From assembly GCF_000374445.1 (NCBI RefSeq), contig NZ_KB894403.1, forward strand, positions 582,435-646,434: a stretch of DNA of 64,000 nucleotides. The letters are read 5' to 3'. The position numbers were made by a program, and so were the translations under genes. The stretch comes from Actinokineospora enzanensis DSM 44649 (GTDB taxonomy: Bacteria; Actinomycetota; Actinomycetes; Mycobacteriales; Pseudonocardiaceae). A model generated the notes under the pieces. The model was not told where the DNA came from, made no database searches, and saw only the letters and a program-made list of their open reading frames with translations. Positions 46,870-61,703 of this stretch are shown one piece after another (the stretch's first letter is position 1; every line of letters begins with the position of its first letter).

Positions 46870-46904
46870 CGGCACACCGCCGCAGGTCAGGCGGCGGTGT
46901 GCCG
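46870..46904. terminator. Bidirectional terminator between DUF2218 and CheW genes
   Basis: A 13-bp stem (46870-46882 with 46892-46904) and a 9-nt loop. The right arm encodes the last codons of the CheW-domain protein. Confidence 0.7.
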
Positions 46905-48338
46905 GGCGGCGGGTGCGTGGTGGCGACCGGCCAGTTCCAGCAGGTCGATCTCCGGCAGGGTCCGGGGGTGCCCGTCCCCCGTCACCCTGACCAGCGGGAA
47001 CGACCGCCTCGGCCCGTCCGGCAGGACCTCCTCCCAGATCGAGTCCTCGATCGCGTGCAGGGCCGACACCACGAAGCCGACGAGGTCCCCGCCGGTGCCG
47101 ACCAGCAGCACCTTGTCCGTCGCCCCGACCGGCGCGGGTCGTTCCAGCACGTCGGCGAGCCGGATCAGCGGGACCGCCACGCCGCGGTGGGTGAACAGGC
47201 CGTGGATCTCCGGGCTGTTGACCGCCAGCACGTCGGCCGGGTACTCGATCACCTCGCTGACCCGCAGCAGGTCCGTCGCCGCCTCGATGCCCGCCTGGAA
47301 GGTCAGCATCGGGCGGACGCGTTCGCGGATCTTACGGCCGCCGGACTGGTCGTCGCGGCCGCTGTCGGACAGTTCGCGGACCACCGGCGGTGCCGCGGCC
47401 GTGGTCATGGTGACGGCGCCCAGGCTGCGGACGTTCTCGTCGGCCACCACGGCCGCGTCGTCGATGACGAGCCGCTGTACGGCGCCGTCGGACAGGGTGC
47501 CCGCCAGCAGGGGCATGCTCGCGCGCACGGAGGCGGGCGCGGCCATGATGTCCTGCGCGGCCACCGACGCCACGTTCGTGACGTCCTCGACCGCGAGGAC
47601 CACCATGCCGCGCGGCAGCCGCAGGCACACGCCGCGCATCGACGTCGTCGCGCCGAGGCTGCCCAGGCCGAGCAGGGCCAGGGTGTCCACGACCGCGACG
47701 GTGTACTCCCCCACCTCGGCCACGCCGAGGCAGACGCCGCGGGCCACCGCGGACGGGGTCACCCGCAGGTCGGGCACGACCGAGTGGACGTGGTCGACGC
47801 CGACGCACAGCCGGGTCTCGCCGCCGCTCAACAGCAGCACCGTCCGCATGGTGCCGTCGATCGCCCGGCGGTGGGCGTTCACGTCGTCACGGCCGCGGTC
47901 GCGGACCGCGGGGACGTCCGGCAGCGTGGTCACCGCGTCGAAGTCCAGCACGCTCACCAGCGCGCCGTCCGCCTGCTCGAAACCGGTGGAGAACAGCACG
48001 TGCTCGCCCGCGGTGCGCATGTGGAACAGCGCGTCCGCCTCGACCGTCTCCACGCCCAGGATCTCGTCCGCGAGCAGGCCGATGACGTGCCCGTCGTGCG
48101 CGGCGACCACGATCACCTCGGGACCCGGGGCGGCCGCGCCGCCGAACAGGTCGCGCAGGCTCAGCACCGGGATCGCCAGGTGGCGCAGGTTGACCGCGCC
48201 GCGCACGGCGGGCTGCCTGGTCGGCATCGGGTCCAGCGCGGCGGGCGCCGGGATGACCTCGCGCAGCCGGGCCAGCGGCAGCGCGACCCGCTTGCCGTCC
48301 ACCGCGAAGACCCCGTACAGGGCGTCGATGTCGGTCAC
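46887..48338 (-). CDS. Chemotaxis coupling protein with three CheW domains
   Basis: A 483-residue soluble protein made of three CheW-like domains (about 5-145, 160-305, 335-475). Each has the family's beta-barrel pattern, for example [22 protein letters not shown]-like hydrophobic strands and ISVLDF-type motifs ([14 protein letters not shown]). CheW links chemoreceptors to CheA; multi-CheW chains are unusual. GTG 48338 overlaps the receptor gene stop (GTGA), so both are co-translated. No CheA or CheY gene is in the window, so the pair is an orphan input unit that probably acts on components elsewhere. Confidence 0.85.
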
Positions 48339-50755
48339 CGCTGCTCCCCGGTCAGCTCCTTGATGAGGGCGTTCACCTCCGTGGAGGTCTCCTGCTGGCG
48401 CTTGGTCGATGCCGCGATGGCCTGGATCGAGTCGGTGGTCTTGCGCACGCTCTGCAGGATCTCGCCGAACGCCGCCTGCGCCCGCTGGGACACCTTGGCG
48501 CCGTGCCCGACCCGCTCGGCCGAGTCCCGGATCAGCTCGGTGATCTCCCGGGCGGCCTCGGAGGACCGCTCGGCCAGCTTGCGCACCTCGGCGGCCACCA
48601 CGGAGAACCCGACGCCGTGCTCACCGGCGCGGGCGGCCTCGATGGAGGCGTTGAACGCCAACAGGTTGGTCTGGCTGGCGATCTCCGAGATCACCCCGAC
48701 GATCTGCGCGATCTTGTCCGAGGAACGCTCGATCAGCGAGATGGCCTCGATGGACTCGCGCAGCTCCTGGTGCCCGACCTCGGCGTTCTGCTGGGTGCGC
48801 CCGGCCAGCTCGCTGGCCTGCTCGCTGCTGCGCACGATGTCGCCGATGGCGTCGAACAGGCCCTGGATGGACTCGCTCATCTGCCCGGTCTTGCTGGTCA
48901 GCCGCTGCTCAAGGGCCACCTGGTCGGTGATGTCGTGCGCGTACTTGACGACCTTGAACGGCTCGCCGCGCAGGTTCAGGATCGGGTTGTAGCTGGCCTG
49001 GATCCACACGTCGCGGCCGAACTTGCCGACCCGGCGGAACCGGCCGGTGAGGAACTCGCCCTTGCGCAGCCGCAGCCAGAAGTCCCGGTACTCCGCGGAG
49101 GTCACGTAGTCCTGCGGGCAGAAGACGCTGTGGTGCTGGCCGACGATCTCGCGCAGCGAGTAGCCCAGGGTGCGCAGGAAGTTGTCGTTGGCGTCCAGCA
49201 CGTTGCCGTCCAGGTCGAACTCGATCACGGCCTGGGCCCGGCCGATCGCGTCGACCTTGCCCTTGAACTCCGAGTTGCGCAGCTTCGCCTCGGTGACGTC
49301 CATCGCATACTTGACGACCTTGTACGGGCGACCGTCCAGGTCGAAGATCGGGTTGTAGGTGGCCTGGATCCAGATCTCCGTGCCGTTGCGGCCGACCCGC
49401 TTGAACTCGCCCGCGTTGTGCTCGCCGCGCCCGAGCCGCTCCCAGAACACCTGGTAGTCCACGGTGGTGGCGTAGTCGCTCTCCACGAACATCCGGTGGT
49501 GCTGGCCGATCACCTGGCCGCGGGTGTAGCCCATCAGGTCAAGGAAGTTGTCGTTGGCCTCCAGGATCCGCCCCTCCAGGTCGAACTCGATGGCGGCCTG
49601 GGCGCGGTCGATCGCGGTGACCTTGCCCTCGAACTCGGCGTTGCGCAGCTTCACGCCGGTGACGTCCATCGCATACTTGACGACCTTGTACGGGCGACCG
49701 TCCAGGTCCAGGATCGGGTTGTAGGTGGCCTGGATCCAGACCTCCGCGCCGTCCTTGCCGATCCGCTTGTACTCGCCAGCCTCGTACTCGCCGCGCCGCA
49801 GCCGCCGCCAGAACGCCTCGTAGGCGGCGTTGGTGGTGGTCGCCGGGTCGACGAACATCCGGTGGTGCTGGCCCTCGACCTCGTCGCGGACGTAGCCGAC
49901 CAGCCGCAGGAAGTTGTCGTTGGCGCTGATGATGGTGCCGTCGAGGTCGAACTCGATCACCGACTGGGCCCGGCCGATGGCCTCCACCATGCCCTCGTAG
50001 CCCGCGTTGCGCAGCTTCACGTCGGTGACGTCCATGGCGTAGGTGACGACCTTGTACGGCACGCCGTCCGGGTCGAAGATCGGGTTGTAGGTGGCCCGCA
50101 GCCACACCTCGCGGCCGTCGCGGCCGATCCGCTTGTACTCGCCGGTGGCGTACTCGCCCGCGCCCAGCCGCTGCCAGAACGCGCGGTAGGCCTGGCCCTT
50201 GGACTCCTCGGGGTCGACGAACATCCGGTGGTGCTGGCCGAGCACCTCGTCCTCGGTGTAGGCCAGCAGGGACAGGAACGACTCGTTGGCGGCCAGTGCG
50301 ATGCCCGCCAGGTCGAACTCGACCACGGCCAGCGACTCGCCGACGGCGGCCTGCTTGGCCTCCAGCTCGTGCGCGTGCCGGTAGCTGTCGGTGAGATCGT
50401 CCGCGCACACCACCACGGCGCCGCCACCGGGCAGCGGGCTGCTGCTCAGCCGGGCCCAGCGGGTGCTGCCGGTGCCGTCGTGCACGGCCTCGTCCATGAT
50501 CACGGTGTGCCGGTTCTCGGTGGCCAGCAGGGCGGCGATCACCGTCGCAGGCAGCTTCCACACCTCGGCCAGGGTGGCCCCGACCAGCGCGTCCAACGAC
50601 CGACCGGTCAGCTCCAGCGCCCGCGCGTTGGCCCCGAGCACCCGGCCGTCGGCCACCGCCACCGTCATCAGGGCCCGGTTGGCGGTCACCAGCCGCAGGC
50701 ACGCGGCCTGGGTCGGACCGTCCATCTGCTCGTCAAGCAGGACGCTGTCAGTCAC
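48335..50755 (-). CDS. Cytosolic PAS-repeat methyl-accepting chemoreceptor
   Basis: An 806-residue protein with no TM helix. A first, divergent PAS (about 20-110) is followed by four tandem PAS units of about 122 residues, each containing NPI(F/L)(D/N)L-type motifs and [12 protein letters not shown]. The C-terminal 170 residues are an MCP signalling domain with the hairpin tip region [19 protein letters not shown] and [17 protein letters not shown]. The PAS copies are so similar that intragenic duplication is likely. GTG 50755 has AGGGAG upstream. It is coupled to the CheW gene. PAS domains could bind haem, flavin or a small ligand; none can be assigned. Confidence 0.9.
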
Positions 50756-50885
50756 CCGAGACTCCCTGTGGTTCGTGCTGTAGTTCGTGGCGGCCGGATT
50801 ACCCGCCGCTCGGGCCATCGGGATCGTCGGTGTCGAGCTGAGCGGATGTCCCCGACGTCACCGGACCGCGTGGTTGACTTGCCCG

Positions 50886-51542
50886 GTGCGTGACGTCACC
50901 CCGGACGGCAGTCCCGTGGAGGTCTACGCGGCACTGCCCGCGCTGGGCGAGCCGGAGATCATCGAGGCGGTGCTGTCGGGTCGCGGGGACGTGCTCGACC
51001 TGGGCTGCGGGACGGGCCGGATCGCGGACGTGCTGGCCCGGCGGGGGCACCGGGTGGTGGCGGTGGACGAGTCGGCGGCGATGCTCGAACGGGTGCGGGT
51101 GGCGGAGGTCGTGCGCGCGCGGATCGAGGAGCTGCGCCTCGAACGCCGGTTCGACGTGGTGGTGCTGGCCAGCCATCTGGTGAACACGCCGTCGCCTGCC
51201 GCGCGTCGGGGCCTGCTGCGGACCGTCGCCCACCACCTGCGCGCGGACGGCCACGCGGTGATCGAGTGGCACCCGCCCGCGTGGTTCGACGAGGTGCGCG
51301 AGTCCACGAGCGTGCTGGGCGAGGTCGGTGTCCGGCTGGGTGATCTCCGTCGGTCGGACGACCTGCTGACCGCCACGGTCGTGTACACGCTCGGCTCGGT
51401 GGCATGGCCGCAGACCTTCACCGCGCGTCGGTTATCCGAGGCCGAACTGTGCACCGACCTCTCCGAGGCGGGGCTGGTGTTCGACCAGTGGCTCACTCCG
51501 GACCGGACCTGGTTCAGTGCTCGGTGCGATGCGGCTGCCTGA
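50886..51542 (+). CDS. Class I SAM-dependent methyltransferase
   Basis: A 218-residue methyltransferase with motif I VLDLGCGTGRIADVLARRG (about 38-56), motif II acidic strand end VVAVDES, then FDVVVLASHLVN and a post-motif helix. The GTG at 50886 gives the full N-terminus, including a helix before motif I. The end overlaps the start of the caspase gene by 14 bp, implying translational coupling and a shared function, perhaps modification of the caspase or its target. The substrate is unknown. Confidence 0.85.
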   Translation: MRDVTPDGSPVEVYAALPALGEPEIIEAVLSGRGDVLDLGCGTGRIADVLARRGHRVVAVDESAAMLERVRVAEVVRARIEELRLERRFDVVVLASHLVNTPSPAARRGLLRTVAHHLRADGHAVIEWHPPAWFDEVRESTSVLGEVGVRLGDLRRSDDLLTATVVYTLGSVAWPQTFTARRLSEAELCTDLSEAGLVFDQWLTPDRTWFSARCDAAA

Positions 51543-53532
51543 CGGGCCGGGCTCGCGGGCGGTGCTGATCGGGGCGGGCCGGTACGAGGATCCGGATCTG
51601 CCCGACCTGCCCGCCGTGTCCGCGAACCTGGCCGCCTTGGCCGAGATCCTGGTGAGTCCGGCGGGGACCGGACTGCCCGCCGAGAACTGCTCGGTGTTCT
51701 CCGACCCGGACGACCTCACCAACCTGGGCGTGAGCATCGAGGCGATCGCCGAGCAGACCCGGGACACGCTGCTGGTCTACTACTCCGGGCACGGCGTGGT
51801 CGACGCCCAGGGGCGGTTGTGCCTGGCCATGCCGGGGACGATGCGCAACCGGCTGCGGTGGACGACGCTGGAGTTCACCCGGCTGCGGGACGTGCTGTTG
51901 GAAGCGCCTGCCGAGAACCGGGTGCTGATATTGGACTGCTGTTTCTCCGGGCGCGCGATCGAGGCAATGGCGTCGGCGGAGTCGGTGATGTCGGGGCAGA
52001 TCGAGATCGCCGGGACCTACACGCTGGCCTCCGCGCCCGCCAACGCCGCAGCCAACGCACCCATGGGTGAACCGCTCACTGCGTTCACCGGGGAGCTTGT
52101 CCGGGTCCTGCGGGACGGTCTGCCCGGCGGTCCACCGCTGCTGTCGTTCACCGCGCTCTACCCGCACCTGGTCCGCGCACTCGACGCGCGCGGACTCGCG
52201 CGCCCGGTCCAACGGGGTGTCCGCACGGCCGATCAACTCGCGCTGGCACCCAACCGCGCGCACGCGCAGAACAGACTGCTTACCCGGGACGCCTTCCTGC
52301 GGCAGGACGCGGACCTGGTGACCGGATCGGCGGCGGTGATCCGCGTCGAGCTCACCGGGCACCGCACGCACCAAGCGGTCCTCGGGTACGGCGAGTCGGA
52401 GCGGATGCTCACCGAGGCAGCCCACCGGCTCGTCGAGACCGTCGGCCCGGACGCGCCGGTCGCCCGGCTGGAAGGTCCGTCGTTCGCCGCGTTGTTGGTC
52501 GGCCCCGCGGCGCAGGAGGTCGACGCACTCGCCGAGCGGGTGCACACCGAACTCTCCCGGCCGTATACCGTCGCCGAACTGGCCGTGCACGTCGGCGTCC
52601 TGGTGGGGCATTCGGCAGGCGATCGCCCGGTCGAGACGCTGCTGCACCAGGCGGACCTCGCGCTGCAGGCCGCATGGGGGCCGCATCCCGTGCGCGACTA
52701 CCAGCCGACGATCGGCGACGTGTTCCTGCGCCGGTACCAGATCGCCAGCCGGTTCCGACGCGGCATCGCCACCGGCCAGGTCCACGTCCGCTACCAGCCC
52801 CGAATAGCGCCCGCGTCCCGACGACTGGTCGGCGTCGAGGCGCTGGTGCGGTGGCGACACCCCGAACTGGGCTCCCTCGACCCGAACGAGCTGGTACCCA
52901 CCGTCGAGTCGACCGGGCAGGCCGACGAGCTGACCGACTTCGTCCTGTACTCGGCGCTTGGCCGCGCGCGGGCGTGGTCGAACGACGGTCTGGACCTCTC
53001 GATGTCGGTGAACATCTCGCCGCGCAACCTCGACGACCAGGGCTTCCCCGATCGGGTGGCCGCGCTGCTGGCGGACCACGCCGTCCCGCCCGGATCGGTG
53101 ACGCTGGCGCTGACCGAGTCGGCGCTGGCCGTCGACCCCGAGCGCGCCATGTCGGCCCTGTGGCGGCTGCGCGAGACCGGGGTTCGCATCGCGCTGGACA
53201 ACTTCGGCAGCGCCCAATCGTCACTGTCCTATCTGCGACAGTCGCCGGTGGACGAGGTCACGATCGACCGCCAGTTCGTCGGGGACCTGCTCGACGACCG
53301 GAGCGACCGGACCGTGGTCCGGTCGCTGGTGGACATCGCGCACTCCCTCGGCCTGACCGCGTGCGCGATCGGAGTGGAGGAAGCCACCACCCTGAACGCG
53401 CTCACCGCCATGGGGTGCGACATCGTCCAGGGCTACCTGATCTCCGGCGCCCGGAGCGGGAAACGGCTCGCCGCGTGGATCGCGACGCACACGACCCGGT
53501 CGGCGGACTCCGCGTTCACCTGGCGGCCCTGA
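51529..53532 (+). CDS. Caspase-like peptidase fused to degenerate GGDEF and EAL domains
   Basis: A 667-residue soluble fusion. Residues 1-245: caspase/metacaspase fold with catalytic His88 ([10 protein letters not shown]) and Cys138 (ILDCCFSG), closest to the actinobacterial EACC1-associated caspases. Residues about 265-385: GGDEF-like domain with the signature lost ([12 protein letters not shown] where ARLGGDEF is expected). Residues about 400-655: EAL domain with E437-A-L (GVEALVRW), N495, E530, D557, E617 and Q634 (VQGY), but the second Asp of DDFG is Asn558 and the catalytic Lys is Thr578 (VTID). The EAL part is probably a ligand-binding or weakened phosphodiesterase module gating the protease. 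ATG 51529 overlaps the methyltransferase stop. The architecture is new to me. Confidence 0.9.
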
Positions 53533-59705: not shown

Positions 59706-61676
59706 CTACGCGGGTGGTGTCTCGTCCAGCAGGGCGTCGACCCGGTCGACGTCGGCGTGGTCGGCGGTGGACCGGTACAGGGCGCGGGCGCGCTGCCAGG
59801 CGTCGCGGGCCTCGGCGACGCGGTGCAGGTCACGGAGCACCAGGCCCAGGTTCGACCAGGCCGTGGCCTCGCCCGCGTAGTCCGGTTCGGACCGGGCGGC
59901 GTCGATGGCCAGGTGGCAGGTGCCGATCGCCTCGTCGTGGTGGCCCGCGTTCCACAGCGCGAGGGCGAGGTTGTTCCAGGCGAGCCCGCGGTTGTGGTCG
60001 TCGCCGGTGTCGTCGAACAGGGCGATCGCGCGGCGGGTGGCGGCGACGGACTCCTCGGCGCGGCCGGTGTGCCGCAGGGCGATGCCCAGGTTCATCCACG
60101 ACGTCGCCTCGGCGTGCCGGTCGGCGGCGGCGCGGTGCAGGTCCACGGCGTGCTGGTGGGCGTCGCGGGCCTCGTCGAAGCGGCCGAGGGCGCGCAGGGT
60201 GGTGCCCAGGTTGTCGGCGGCGGCCGCCTCGCCCGCGCGGTCGCCGAAGCGGTGGTAGCGGGCCACGGCGTCGCGGCAGGCGAGCAGGGCTTCGGCGAAC
60301 CGGTGCGACGCGCGCAGGGCGGCGCCGAGGTTGTCGGCGGCCTTGGCCTGGTCGCGGGGTCCGAAGTGGAGGGCGCTGCGGCGGGCGTGCCGGGCGACGA
60401 CGACCCAGTCGGTGAGGTGGTGGTTCCGGTCCAGGTGGTCGGCGAGGGCGGCGGCGAGACGGACGGCGTGGTCGTGGTGGCCGGTGAGGCTGGTCCAGAC
60501 GACCACCGCGACCAGGTTGACGCGTTCCGCGGCCAGCCAGTCGACGGCGTCCTTGAGGTGGTGGAAGCGTTCCACGGGTCCGTGAAGCCGTTGGCGGGCT
60601 TGCTCGGCGGTGAGCGTGTAGTGGTCGAACAGCCGGGCCAGGGCGGACTCGTTCTCGTCCTGGCCGGGTGGGATGTGCGAGCGGACCAGGTCGTGCAGAC
60701 CCCAGCGGCCCGGCGCGGTGGTGCGGACGAGCCGGGCGGCGCGCAGCGCGTGGAGATCGTTCTCGCCCCGGCCGGTCAGCACCGCAACGGCCTCTGTGGA
60801 CAGATCAGGTCCGGGTGCCAGGCACATCAGGCGCAGCATCTCCGCCCGCTGCGGGGCGGTGCGCGACAGGTGCCGCCAGGCAAAGTCCACAATGGAGTCC
60901 GTGGCAAGCCTGCCGGCGAGCACGTCCGGCGACAGCTCCTCCAGCAACGCGCCCGCGATGCGCAGGGACAACGGGAGACCGAGCGCCTGCAGGGCCGGGG
61001 CGTCGGTGAGGTCGTGGTCGCCGAGCAGGAGCCGGGCGGCGTCGGCGTCGAGCGGGCCGAGTGGCACGTGCTGGGCGGGAAGGTCGAGCGGCTCCCGGGA
61101 AGTGACCAGGACGACGTGGTCGCCGGAGTCCGGCAGCAGTGGGAGAACCTGGGCGGGCGTCGAGACGTTGTCCAGGATCAGCAGCGTCCGCTCGCGCCGG
61201 ATCCAGCCCCGGACGGTCTCCGCCGCGACCGGGTCCGGGGCGTGTCCGCGCATGTCGACCAGGAAGACACCGCCGGGGAAGTCCGCCGCGACCCGCCGGG
61301 CGTGGTGCCGGACGAACGTGGTCTTGCCGATGCCGCTCGGCCCGGTCACCATCGTCACGCCCGCGGGCTCCCAGGCGAGCTGCTCGTCGCGGCCCACGAA
61401 GACCTCGTCCACCGGCGAGTCCGGCCCGAGGGTCTCCACCCGCGCGGCGCCGCGGCTGTCGATGTCGGGCGGGCGGGCCGCCGGGGCGGGCCGCACCCGG
61501 ACCTGCCGGACGAACAGGGCGGCCGCGGGCAGCAGGGCGACCATCCAGATGACGACGGCGGGCGGCCGGTTCTCCTCGGCCAGGCTCGGCCAGCCGAACA
61601 GGAGCAGCTCCCACAGGCCCACGACCACGGCCATCACCGCGACCGCCACGAAGAGGGCCTGCCACCACCGCGCCAT
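59706..61676 (-). CDS. Membrane-anchored STAND NTPase with TPR repeats
   Basis: A 656-residue protein: two TM helices at the N-terminus (about 5-27 and 40-58), an NB-ARC-like ATPase (Walker A TGPSGIGKTTFVRHHA, about 110; Walker B RTLLILDNVS, about 170; VLVTSREP sensor, about 195), a winged-helix region (MLRLMCLAPGPDLS), and at least six TPRs from about 390 to 640 (ADNLGAALRASHRFAEAL and similar). This is the AfsR/AP-ATPase class without an N-terminal DNA-binding domain. ATG 61676 is preferred to GTG 61685 because GGGG would abut the latter. A palindrome GCATGATCATGC lies 28 bp upstream. Confidence 0.85.
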   Translation of the reverse strand: MARWWQALFVAVAVMAVVVGLWELLLFGWPSLAEENRPPAVVIWMVALLPAAALFVRQVRVRPAPAARPPDIDSRGAARVETLGPDSPVDEVFVGRDEQLAWEPAGVTMVTGPSGIGKTTFVRHHARRVAADFPGGVFLVDMRGHAPDPVAAETVRGWIRRERTLLILDNVSTPAQVLPLLPDSGDHVVLVTSREPLDLPAQHVPLGPLDADAARLLLGDHDLTDAPALQALGLPLSLRIAGALLEELSPDVLAGRLATDSIVDFAWRHLSRTAPQRAEMLRLMCLAPGPDLSTEAVAVLTGRGENDLHALRAARLVRTTAPGRWGLHDLVRSHIPPGQDENESALARLFDHYTLTAEQARQRLHGPVERFHHLKDAVDWLAAERVNLVAVVVWTSLTGHHDHAVRLAAALADHLDRNHHLTDWVVVARHARRSALHFGPRDQAKAADNLGAALRASHRFAEALLACRDAVARYHRFGDRAGEAAAADNLGTTLRALGRFDEARDAHQHAVDLHRAAADRHAEATSWMNLGIALRHTGRAEESVAATRRAIALFDDTGDDHNRGLAWNNLALALWNAGHHDEAIGTCHLAIDAARSEPDYAGEATAWSNLGLVLRDLHRVAEARDAWQRARALYRSTADHADVDRVDALLDETPPA

Positions 61677-61703
61677 CCGACTCACCCCCGGTACCGACTC
61701 CGA

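Follow-up and report, generated by a model that had tools for sequence, protein, structure and literature searches.

Control of a cysteine protease by an inactive GGDEF-EAL protein is exemplified by LapD, which acts on LapG via c-di-GMP. A table in PMC5301497 lists the EAL domains of both LapD and FimX as metal-free binders of c-di-GMP, and bacteria are reported to guard cyclic nucleotide pools against phage with the Panoptes system (PMC12657218). Caspases of bacterial conflict systems were described by Kaur et al. (2020), who reported that EACC1 adjoins caspases whose C-terminal modules number up to 50 and include signalling enzymes and EF-Tu, and proposed these C-terminal domains as effectors deployed by auto-proteolysis (PMC7159879). 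The same work proposes that inactive enzyme copies serve as decoys in such conflict systems in general (PMC7159879). Its main text names GGDEF for other systems only and does not mention EAL, and a GGDEF-EAL module may be contained in figure 7C or the source data. In cyanobacteria, two caspase homologues (orthocaspases) with an EAL domain and one with a GGDEF domain are counted in Table 1 of PMC8283722, and Asplund-Samuelsson (2012) names a metacaspase with a GGDEF domain in Nostoc punctiforme (PMC3501461). A functional link between a caspase and c-di-GMP was not found among the titles and abstract openings listed in searches of open-licence papers.

The window analyzed here, a stretch of 64,000 nucleotides from Actinokineospora enzanensis DSM 44649, contains a gene at 51529..53532 on the forward strand that fuses a caspase to a GGDEF domain without its signature and an EAL domain with a damaged site. 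The frame starts with ATG at 51529, runs through 667 codons without interruption and ends with a stop codon at 53532. Pfam matches were obtained for Peptidase_C14 at residues 10-196 (29.7 bits, cut-off 21.4), GGDEF at residues 235-382 (44.2 bits, cut-off 23.8) and EAL at residues 408-639 (213.2 bits, cut-off 31.3). Together with the NCBIfam match given below, this confirms the claim of an earlier note on this DNA that a single 667-residue frame joins a caspase, a GGDEF and an EAL domain. Chance domain matches were ruled out as the scores lie far above chance and over the cut-offs. The GC content at third codon positions is high in both halves of the gene (0.898 and 0.912), which disfavours a frame-shift artefact. 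For this reason, and because the frame is open, a sequencing or frame error behind the fusion, another concern of the note, was ruled out.

The N-terminal part matches the NCBIfam family NF047832 (caspase_w_EACC1) at residues 9-220 (51553..52188, forward strand) with 247.8 bits at a cut-off of 140, and is thus a caspase of the EACC1-associated type. The His88 (51790..51792) and Cys138 (51940..51942) dyad that the earlier note had recognized is intact, and the two columns are His and Cys, respectively, in all 39 related caspases used for comparison. These 39 were taken from 42 gathered relatives, leaving out L091, L093 and L135. The fusion keeps 12 of the 13 columns that are invariant among them, the exception being A224 in place of P. 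Against the anti-phage defence profiles of PADLOC, the caspase match is weak (16.1 bits, E 0.0012).

The GGDEF domain spans approximately residues 245-382 (52261..52674, forward strand), its start being set by eye after the end motif of the caspase. It reads EGPSF at the place of the GGDEF/GGEEF signature of active cyclases, in agreement with the earlier note. The motif is equally absent in all 41 related family proteins, which read E/D-G-x-x-F there. The degeneracy is therefore not particular to the fusion, and GGDEF loss as a mark of its specialization was ruled out.

From about residue 248 onwards, the tail matches family proteins of mostly around 900 residues, with 45-51% identity among the best matches listed. 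One of these relatives is encoded in the same genome (L146), has 927 AA and consists of N-terminal hydrophobic stretches (identified by eye) followed by GAF, GGDEF and EAL domains. The EAL site is whole in 41/41 of the membrane-GAF-GGDEF-EAL proteins compared, which are the best-matching ones with loci and include the genome's own copy. Since the GGDEF domain is degenerate and the EAL site whole in these relatives, the tail has lost its EAL site itself. Judged by their residues, the relatives with a whole site are predicted to be active phosphodiesterases.

The EAL domain of the fusion (residues 408-639; 52750..53445, forward strand) retains six of ten site positions, namely E437, N495, D557, D580, E617 and Q634. 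The other four are changed, so that the domain does not have the site of an active phosphodiesterase: E527A (53107..53109), D558N (53200..53202), K578T (53260..53262) and E614I (53368..53370), all on the forward strand. Position 578 is the place of a conserved Lys; this Lys, E617 and Q634 are counted as site positions by their roles. Ala527 stands at the place of a metal-1 carboxylate, where all 97 EAL domains compared have Glu. Asn558 replaces the second Asp of the DDFGTG motif (metal 2), and Ile614 replaces the Glu of AEGVE. A further change in the DDFGTG loop is Ala562. In PA3825, the metal-1 ligands are Glu39, Asn98, Asp130 and Asp160, and metal 2 is bound by Asp161 and Asp183, joined in the calcium form by Asp160 and Glu217 (Bellini et al., PMC5301497). 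By residue spacing, these ligands correspond to E437, N495, A527, D557, N558, D580 and I614 of the fusion; the placement of residue 527 opposite Asp130 and that of Ile614 opposite Glu217 follow from this spacing. The earlier note was right about Asn558 and Thr578 at two catalytic positions, but it underestimated the damage, as Ala527 and Ile614, as well as Ala562, are also changed.

Among 38 columns invariant in 97 other EAL domains, 32 are kept in the fusion, and the changes affect 4/10 site columns and 2/28 others (one-sided Fisher p 0.031). This value is optimistic because the list of ten site positions was completed after Ala527 had been seen, and at looser column thresholds of 0.98 and 0.95 it becomes 0.08. 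The 97 domains comprise the 41 family proteins and 56 domains from named genomes (56 of 57 loci), the latter drawn by exact words and mostly from clostridia, which inflates the conservation around AMGCDIVQ. Within the 41 family proteins alone, 47 of 142 invariant EAL columns are changed and the site (3/9 changed) shows no excess over this background (p 0.62); here, nine site positions were considered, with 530 standing in place of 527. We read the EAL domain as one that has probably lost catalysis and kept its fold while diverging fast; this does not prove that the pocket is preserved. In one multiple alignment, a further EAL domain encoded in the genome (L007, G000:C10:177553-178227) appears to be without nearly all site residues.

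The divergence of the tail is pronounced. It shares 46-48% identity with the 41 family proteins, which share 69-99% among themselves, and each of 11 outgroup sequences is closer even to the least similar family member than to the tail. In a first tree, the tail was nested inside the genus with support of 92/99. In a second tree restricted to loci, this nesting received 64/99 and the tail branch was very long, and in topology tests neither a placement outside the genus (p 0.582) nor one outside the family (p 0.583) was rejected. The term copy of a host protein therefore refers here to kinship with the family and not to a dated duplication. Between the tail and the genus proteins, dN is about 0.44 and dS about 0.70 (dN/dS roughly 0.6), compared to a dN of 0.065 and a dS of 0.375 (dN/dS 0.17) within the genus proteins. 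The contrast is smaller when the genus is compared with other genera of the family (dN 0.18, dS 0.50, dN/dS about 0.36), and all these ratios are rough because dS is near saturation.

Despite this divergence, the frame contains no stop and codon-position GC is retained. When neutral decay of the genome's own copy to 49% identity was simulated, 3.8 stops arose on average and only 4 of 200 runs were free of stops, in a simulation of substitutions only with base weights chosen by hand. When the structure model is divided into blocks of ten residues, 37 of the 42 blocks that start at residue 251 or later have a mean pLDDT of 70-97. Residues 1-248, the caspase half, remain below 50, which is due to the fact that the alignment contained no caspase rows. 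The first structural match of the tail model is the c-di-GMP complex of the MorA GGDEF-EAL pair, followed by the GGDEF-EAL structures of PA0575, DosP and PA0861. Several EAL domains alone superpose on the model at about 1.4-2.1 angstroms, whereas both domains together superpose only loosely on MorA (rmsd 13.5, with the EAL domain alone near 2). The model, the structural matches and the site loss describe a folded EAL domain without catalytic residues, as in receptors of the FimX/LapD type. These results fit, without proving, a gene on which selection may act for a function different from the hydrolysis of c-di-GMP.

A second caspase-GGDEF-EAL fusion did not appear among the matches listed in the family, class and phylum genomes. 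None was found at E 1e-115 among 16 genomes of the genus, including the source genome. In 390 family genomes (E 1e-106), the listed matches other than the fusion all begin at residue 211 or later, and in 396 phylum genomes the single further match listed at E 1e-85 was the relative from the same genome; this cut-off could hide a distant fusion if its domains scored apart. A query of the caspase and GGDEF domains (residues 1-391) was matched over its whole span only by the fusion itself, both among the 143 matches listed in 386 family genomes and among the 43 listed in 306 class genomes. Eight of the longer other matches, ending at residues 346, 320, 315, 313, 287, 283, 282 and 278, had no GGDEF-EAL tail in tblastn searches. 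Among 39 loci with a caspase match, four represent the fusion, and in the remaining 35 the tail was absent from the stretch examined. These wide searches scored the best three to six candidates per genome, ranked by E-value. In phages and plasmids, tblastn gave no record with one place covering 80% of the fusion protein, neither among 57 matching records nor, in another search, among the 5000 records to which its matches were limited, and viral contigs contained no relative. Of 57 loci matched in named bacterial genomes, none matched the caspase part at E 1e-5, in a scan that needs exact short words, would miss distant fusions and may leave out near kin of the source genome. The fusion thus occurs in one genome only among those searched, and its function cannot be argued from conservation across species.

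The gene is preceded on the same strand by a frame for a class I methyltransferase (50787..51542, Pfam). Since this frame ends 14 bases inside the fusion gene, the two likely form one operon, and the methyltransferase is possibly a partner of the fusion. It also matches a part of mad2 (45.7 bits, residues 34-139), which we read as a generic methyltransferase stretch. Near a relative with 54% identity in another genome (G003), no caspase was found within the 8.5 kb read. Further upstream, on the other strand, a chemoreceptor with several PAS domains (46887-50818) adjoins a protein with three CheW-like stretches; by eye, the chemoreceptor has no obvious membrane part. An MFS transporter follows downstream of the fusion. 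A chemoreceptor region with 79% identity is present elsewhere in a genome of the same genus (G009). There, this region and the transporter lie on separate contigs (C7 and C2), and the gene order of the window is therefore not common to that genome. About 6 kb from the fusion, the window also contains a frame on the reverse strand (59706-61685) with a STAND-like NTPase stretch, a weak match under the cut-off, and TPR repeats.

An EACC1 gene is absent 5' of the fusion. The genome has two PF19953 matches, one on contig C12 and one on C10, and both adjoin caspases other than the fusion, which lies on C1. Counting the place of the fusion, 18 of the 40 nearest caspase places have an EACC1 gene and 22 lack it; rows down to G181:C1:9108088 were used for this count, and no weaker row lies near the 40 places. 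As the 5' EACC1 gene is missing, the fusion is not filed as a two-gene EACC1 system.

The fusion has the N-terminal caspase and variable C-terminal module that characterize EACC1 caspases. Its nearest caspases (46-53% identical) carry DnaK (L116, L117, L119, L126), Sel1/TPR-like repeats (L118, L124), EF-Tu (L127) and other modules. Most of these labels were read from the sequence, while a check covered two EF-Tu tails and the DnaK tail of L161, which is the same place as L116. Two caspases are fused to a nearly full-length EF-Tu with damaged GTPase motifs (L170:1554-2792, reverse strand, and L127:2206-3420, forward strand). In L170, whose caspase is 42% identical, DAPGHADY is changed to VFRSHADY, NKAD to TFAD and GHVDHGKTT to GQTGHGKTT. 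The changes in L127 are milder, with TKCD for NKSD and GHVGHGKST for GHVDHGKTT. At least two module types therefore occur as damaged relatives of host proteins, and the EF-Tu tails are possibly further decoys. A third caspase (L161:3615-5417, reverse strand) is fused to DnaK over nearly its whole length, with ATPase motifs that appear intact by eye, and adjoins an EACC1 gene. Inactivity of the modules is therefore not general.

The best explanation, to which we give an even chance, is that of an EACC1-type caspase effector whose exchangeable C-terminal module is a dead relative of the host's own GGDEF-EAL protein; this module would hold or release the protease. As input, it could take c-di-GMP, bound but not hydrolysed in the manner of FimX or LapD, or a factor with which an invader acts on the host protein. 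A changed input would free the caspase, which would cleave itself or host proteins and thereby stop the cell. If the dead module gates the caspase, the fusion would connect a death protease, within one chain, to c-di-GMP or to a c-di-GMP enzyme.

Two versions of this explanation are close rivals. In the first, which is the model of the earlier note, binding of c-di-GMP by the dead EAL domain would be enough to switch the caspase on or off. Residues of the pocket region are kept (E437, L439, R441, N495, D557, D580, E617, Q634 and G635), and the eight EAL matches in the genome make c-di-GMP signalling likely in this organism. The precedents of LapD with LapG and of Panoptes render a dead trigger module plausible, but neither proves it for the fusion; the metal-free binding tabulated for FimX and LapD (PMC5301497) speaks for the ligand gate. 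Given an altered metal-1 carboxylate and DDFGTG loop and the many changes at family-invariant EAL columns, we regard this version as possible but on the doubtful side. In the second, the dead copy would serve as a mimic of the GGDEF-EAL protein of the host, an invader protein would hit it and the caspase would answer, so that nucleotide binding would be irrelevant. This version is tentative and about as likely as the ligand gate. An inactive version and a counterpart predicted to be active in one cell form the pattern for which decoys were proposed (PMC7159879), the divergence of the tail is accelerated, and two caspases of the same type carry a damaged EF-Tu. The apparently intact DnaK module speaks against it.

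A more far-reaching proposal is that of a bacterial integrated decoy. The caspase would contain a dead copy of the host's own c-di-GMP phosphodiesterase, an attack on the enzyme or on the messenger pool would trigger the protease, and the sister caspases with damaged EF-Tu modules would follow the same general design. We consider it unlikely in this full form. If the dead module gates the caspase, the decoy proposal for these conflict systems would also become directly testable, because all its parts can be named: the dead copy as bait, the genome's own site-whole copy as guarded protein and the caspase as effector.

Alternatively, the caspase might cut off the tail and the free tail might act, in line with the auto-proteolytic deployment of effectors that Kaur et al. 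suggest for EACC1 C-terminal domains (PMC7159879, section 33). With a damaged EAL site and no GGDEF motif, the only action left to a free tail would be to sequester c-di-GMP or a partner, and this alternative appears improbable. A chance fusion of a decaying duplicate without a role, which would agree with the single genome and the many changes at family-invariant columns, is no more probable, considering 667 codons without a stop where only 4/200 neutral-decay runs stayed open, the codon-position GC kept, and the retention of 32/38 invariant EAL and 12/13 caspase columns.

Compared to its nearest relative, the membrane-GAF-GGDEF-EAL family protein, the fusion shares the degenerate GGDEF motif and differs in its damaged EAL site, which is whole in the family, and in having a caspase where the genome's own copy has a GAF domain and a hydrophobic N-terminus. 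FimX and LapD likewise combine GGDEF and EAL domains without catalysis, and FimX was found among the sequence matches and LapD among the family-profile and structural matches. Unlike the fusion, they have no caspase in the chain, and c-di-GMP binding is established for them whereas for the fusion it is only proposed. Panoptes OptE (PMC12657218) and the SAVED protease CalpL (PMC11417357) resemble the proposed function as effectors controlled by cyclic nucleotides, CalpL being a protease as well, and work with different nucleotides and different sensor folds.

Cyanobacterial orthocaspases with EAL or GGDEF domains also combine a caspase homologue and a c-di-GMP domain in one protein; they belong to another phylum and are counted or named in the cited passages (PMC8283722, PMC3501461). 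Together with the caspase modules of EACC1 systems (PMC7159879), they show that the undescribed link claimed in the earlier note was too strong a statement for the architecture. The other part of its interpretation, a caspase fused to a non-catalytic and well-modelled GGDEF-EAL pair with six of ten site positions, stood. With the two-gene EACC1-caspase systems (System 4 in PMC7159879), the fusion shares the N-terminal caspase of EACC1 type, the variable C-terminal module and the actinobacterial origin, and the EF-Tu module listed for them recurs in its related caspases, whereas the 5' EACC1 gene is missing. The fusion is therefore a variant of the EACC1-type caspase with a swapped C-terminal module, in an architecture of caspase and EAL or GGDEF domains that has already been counted in cyanobacteria.
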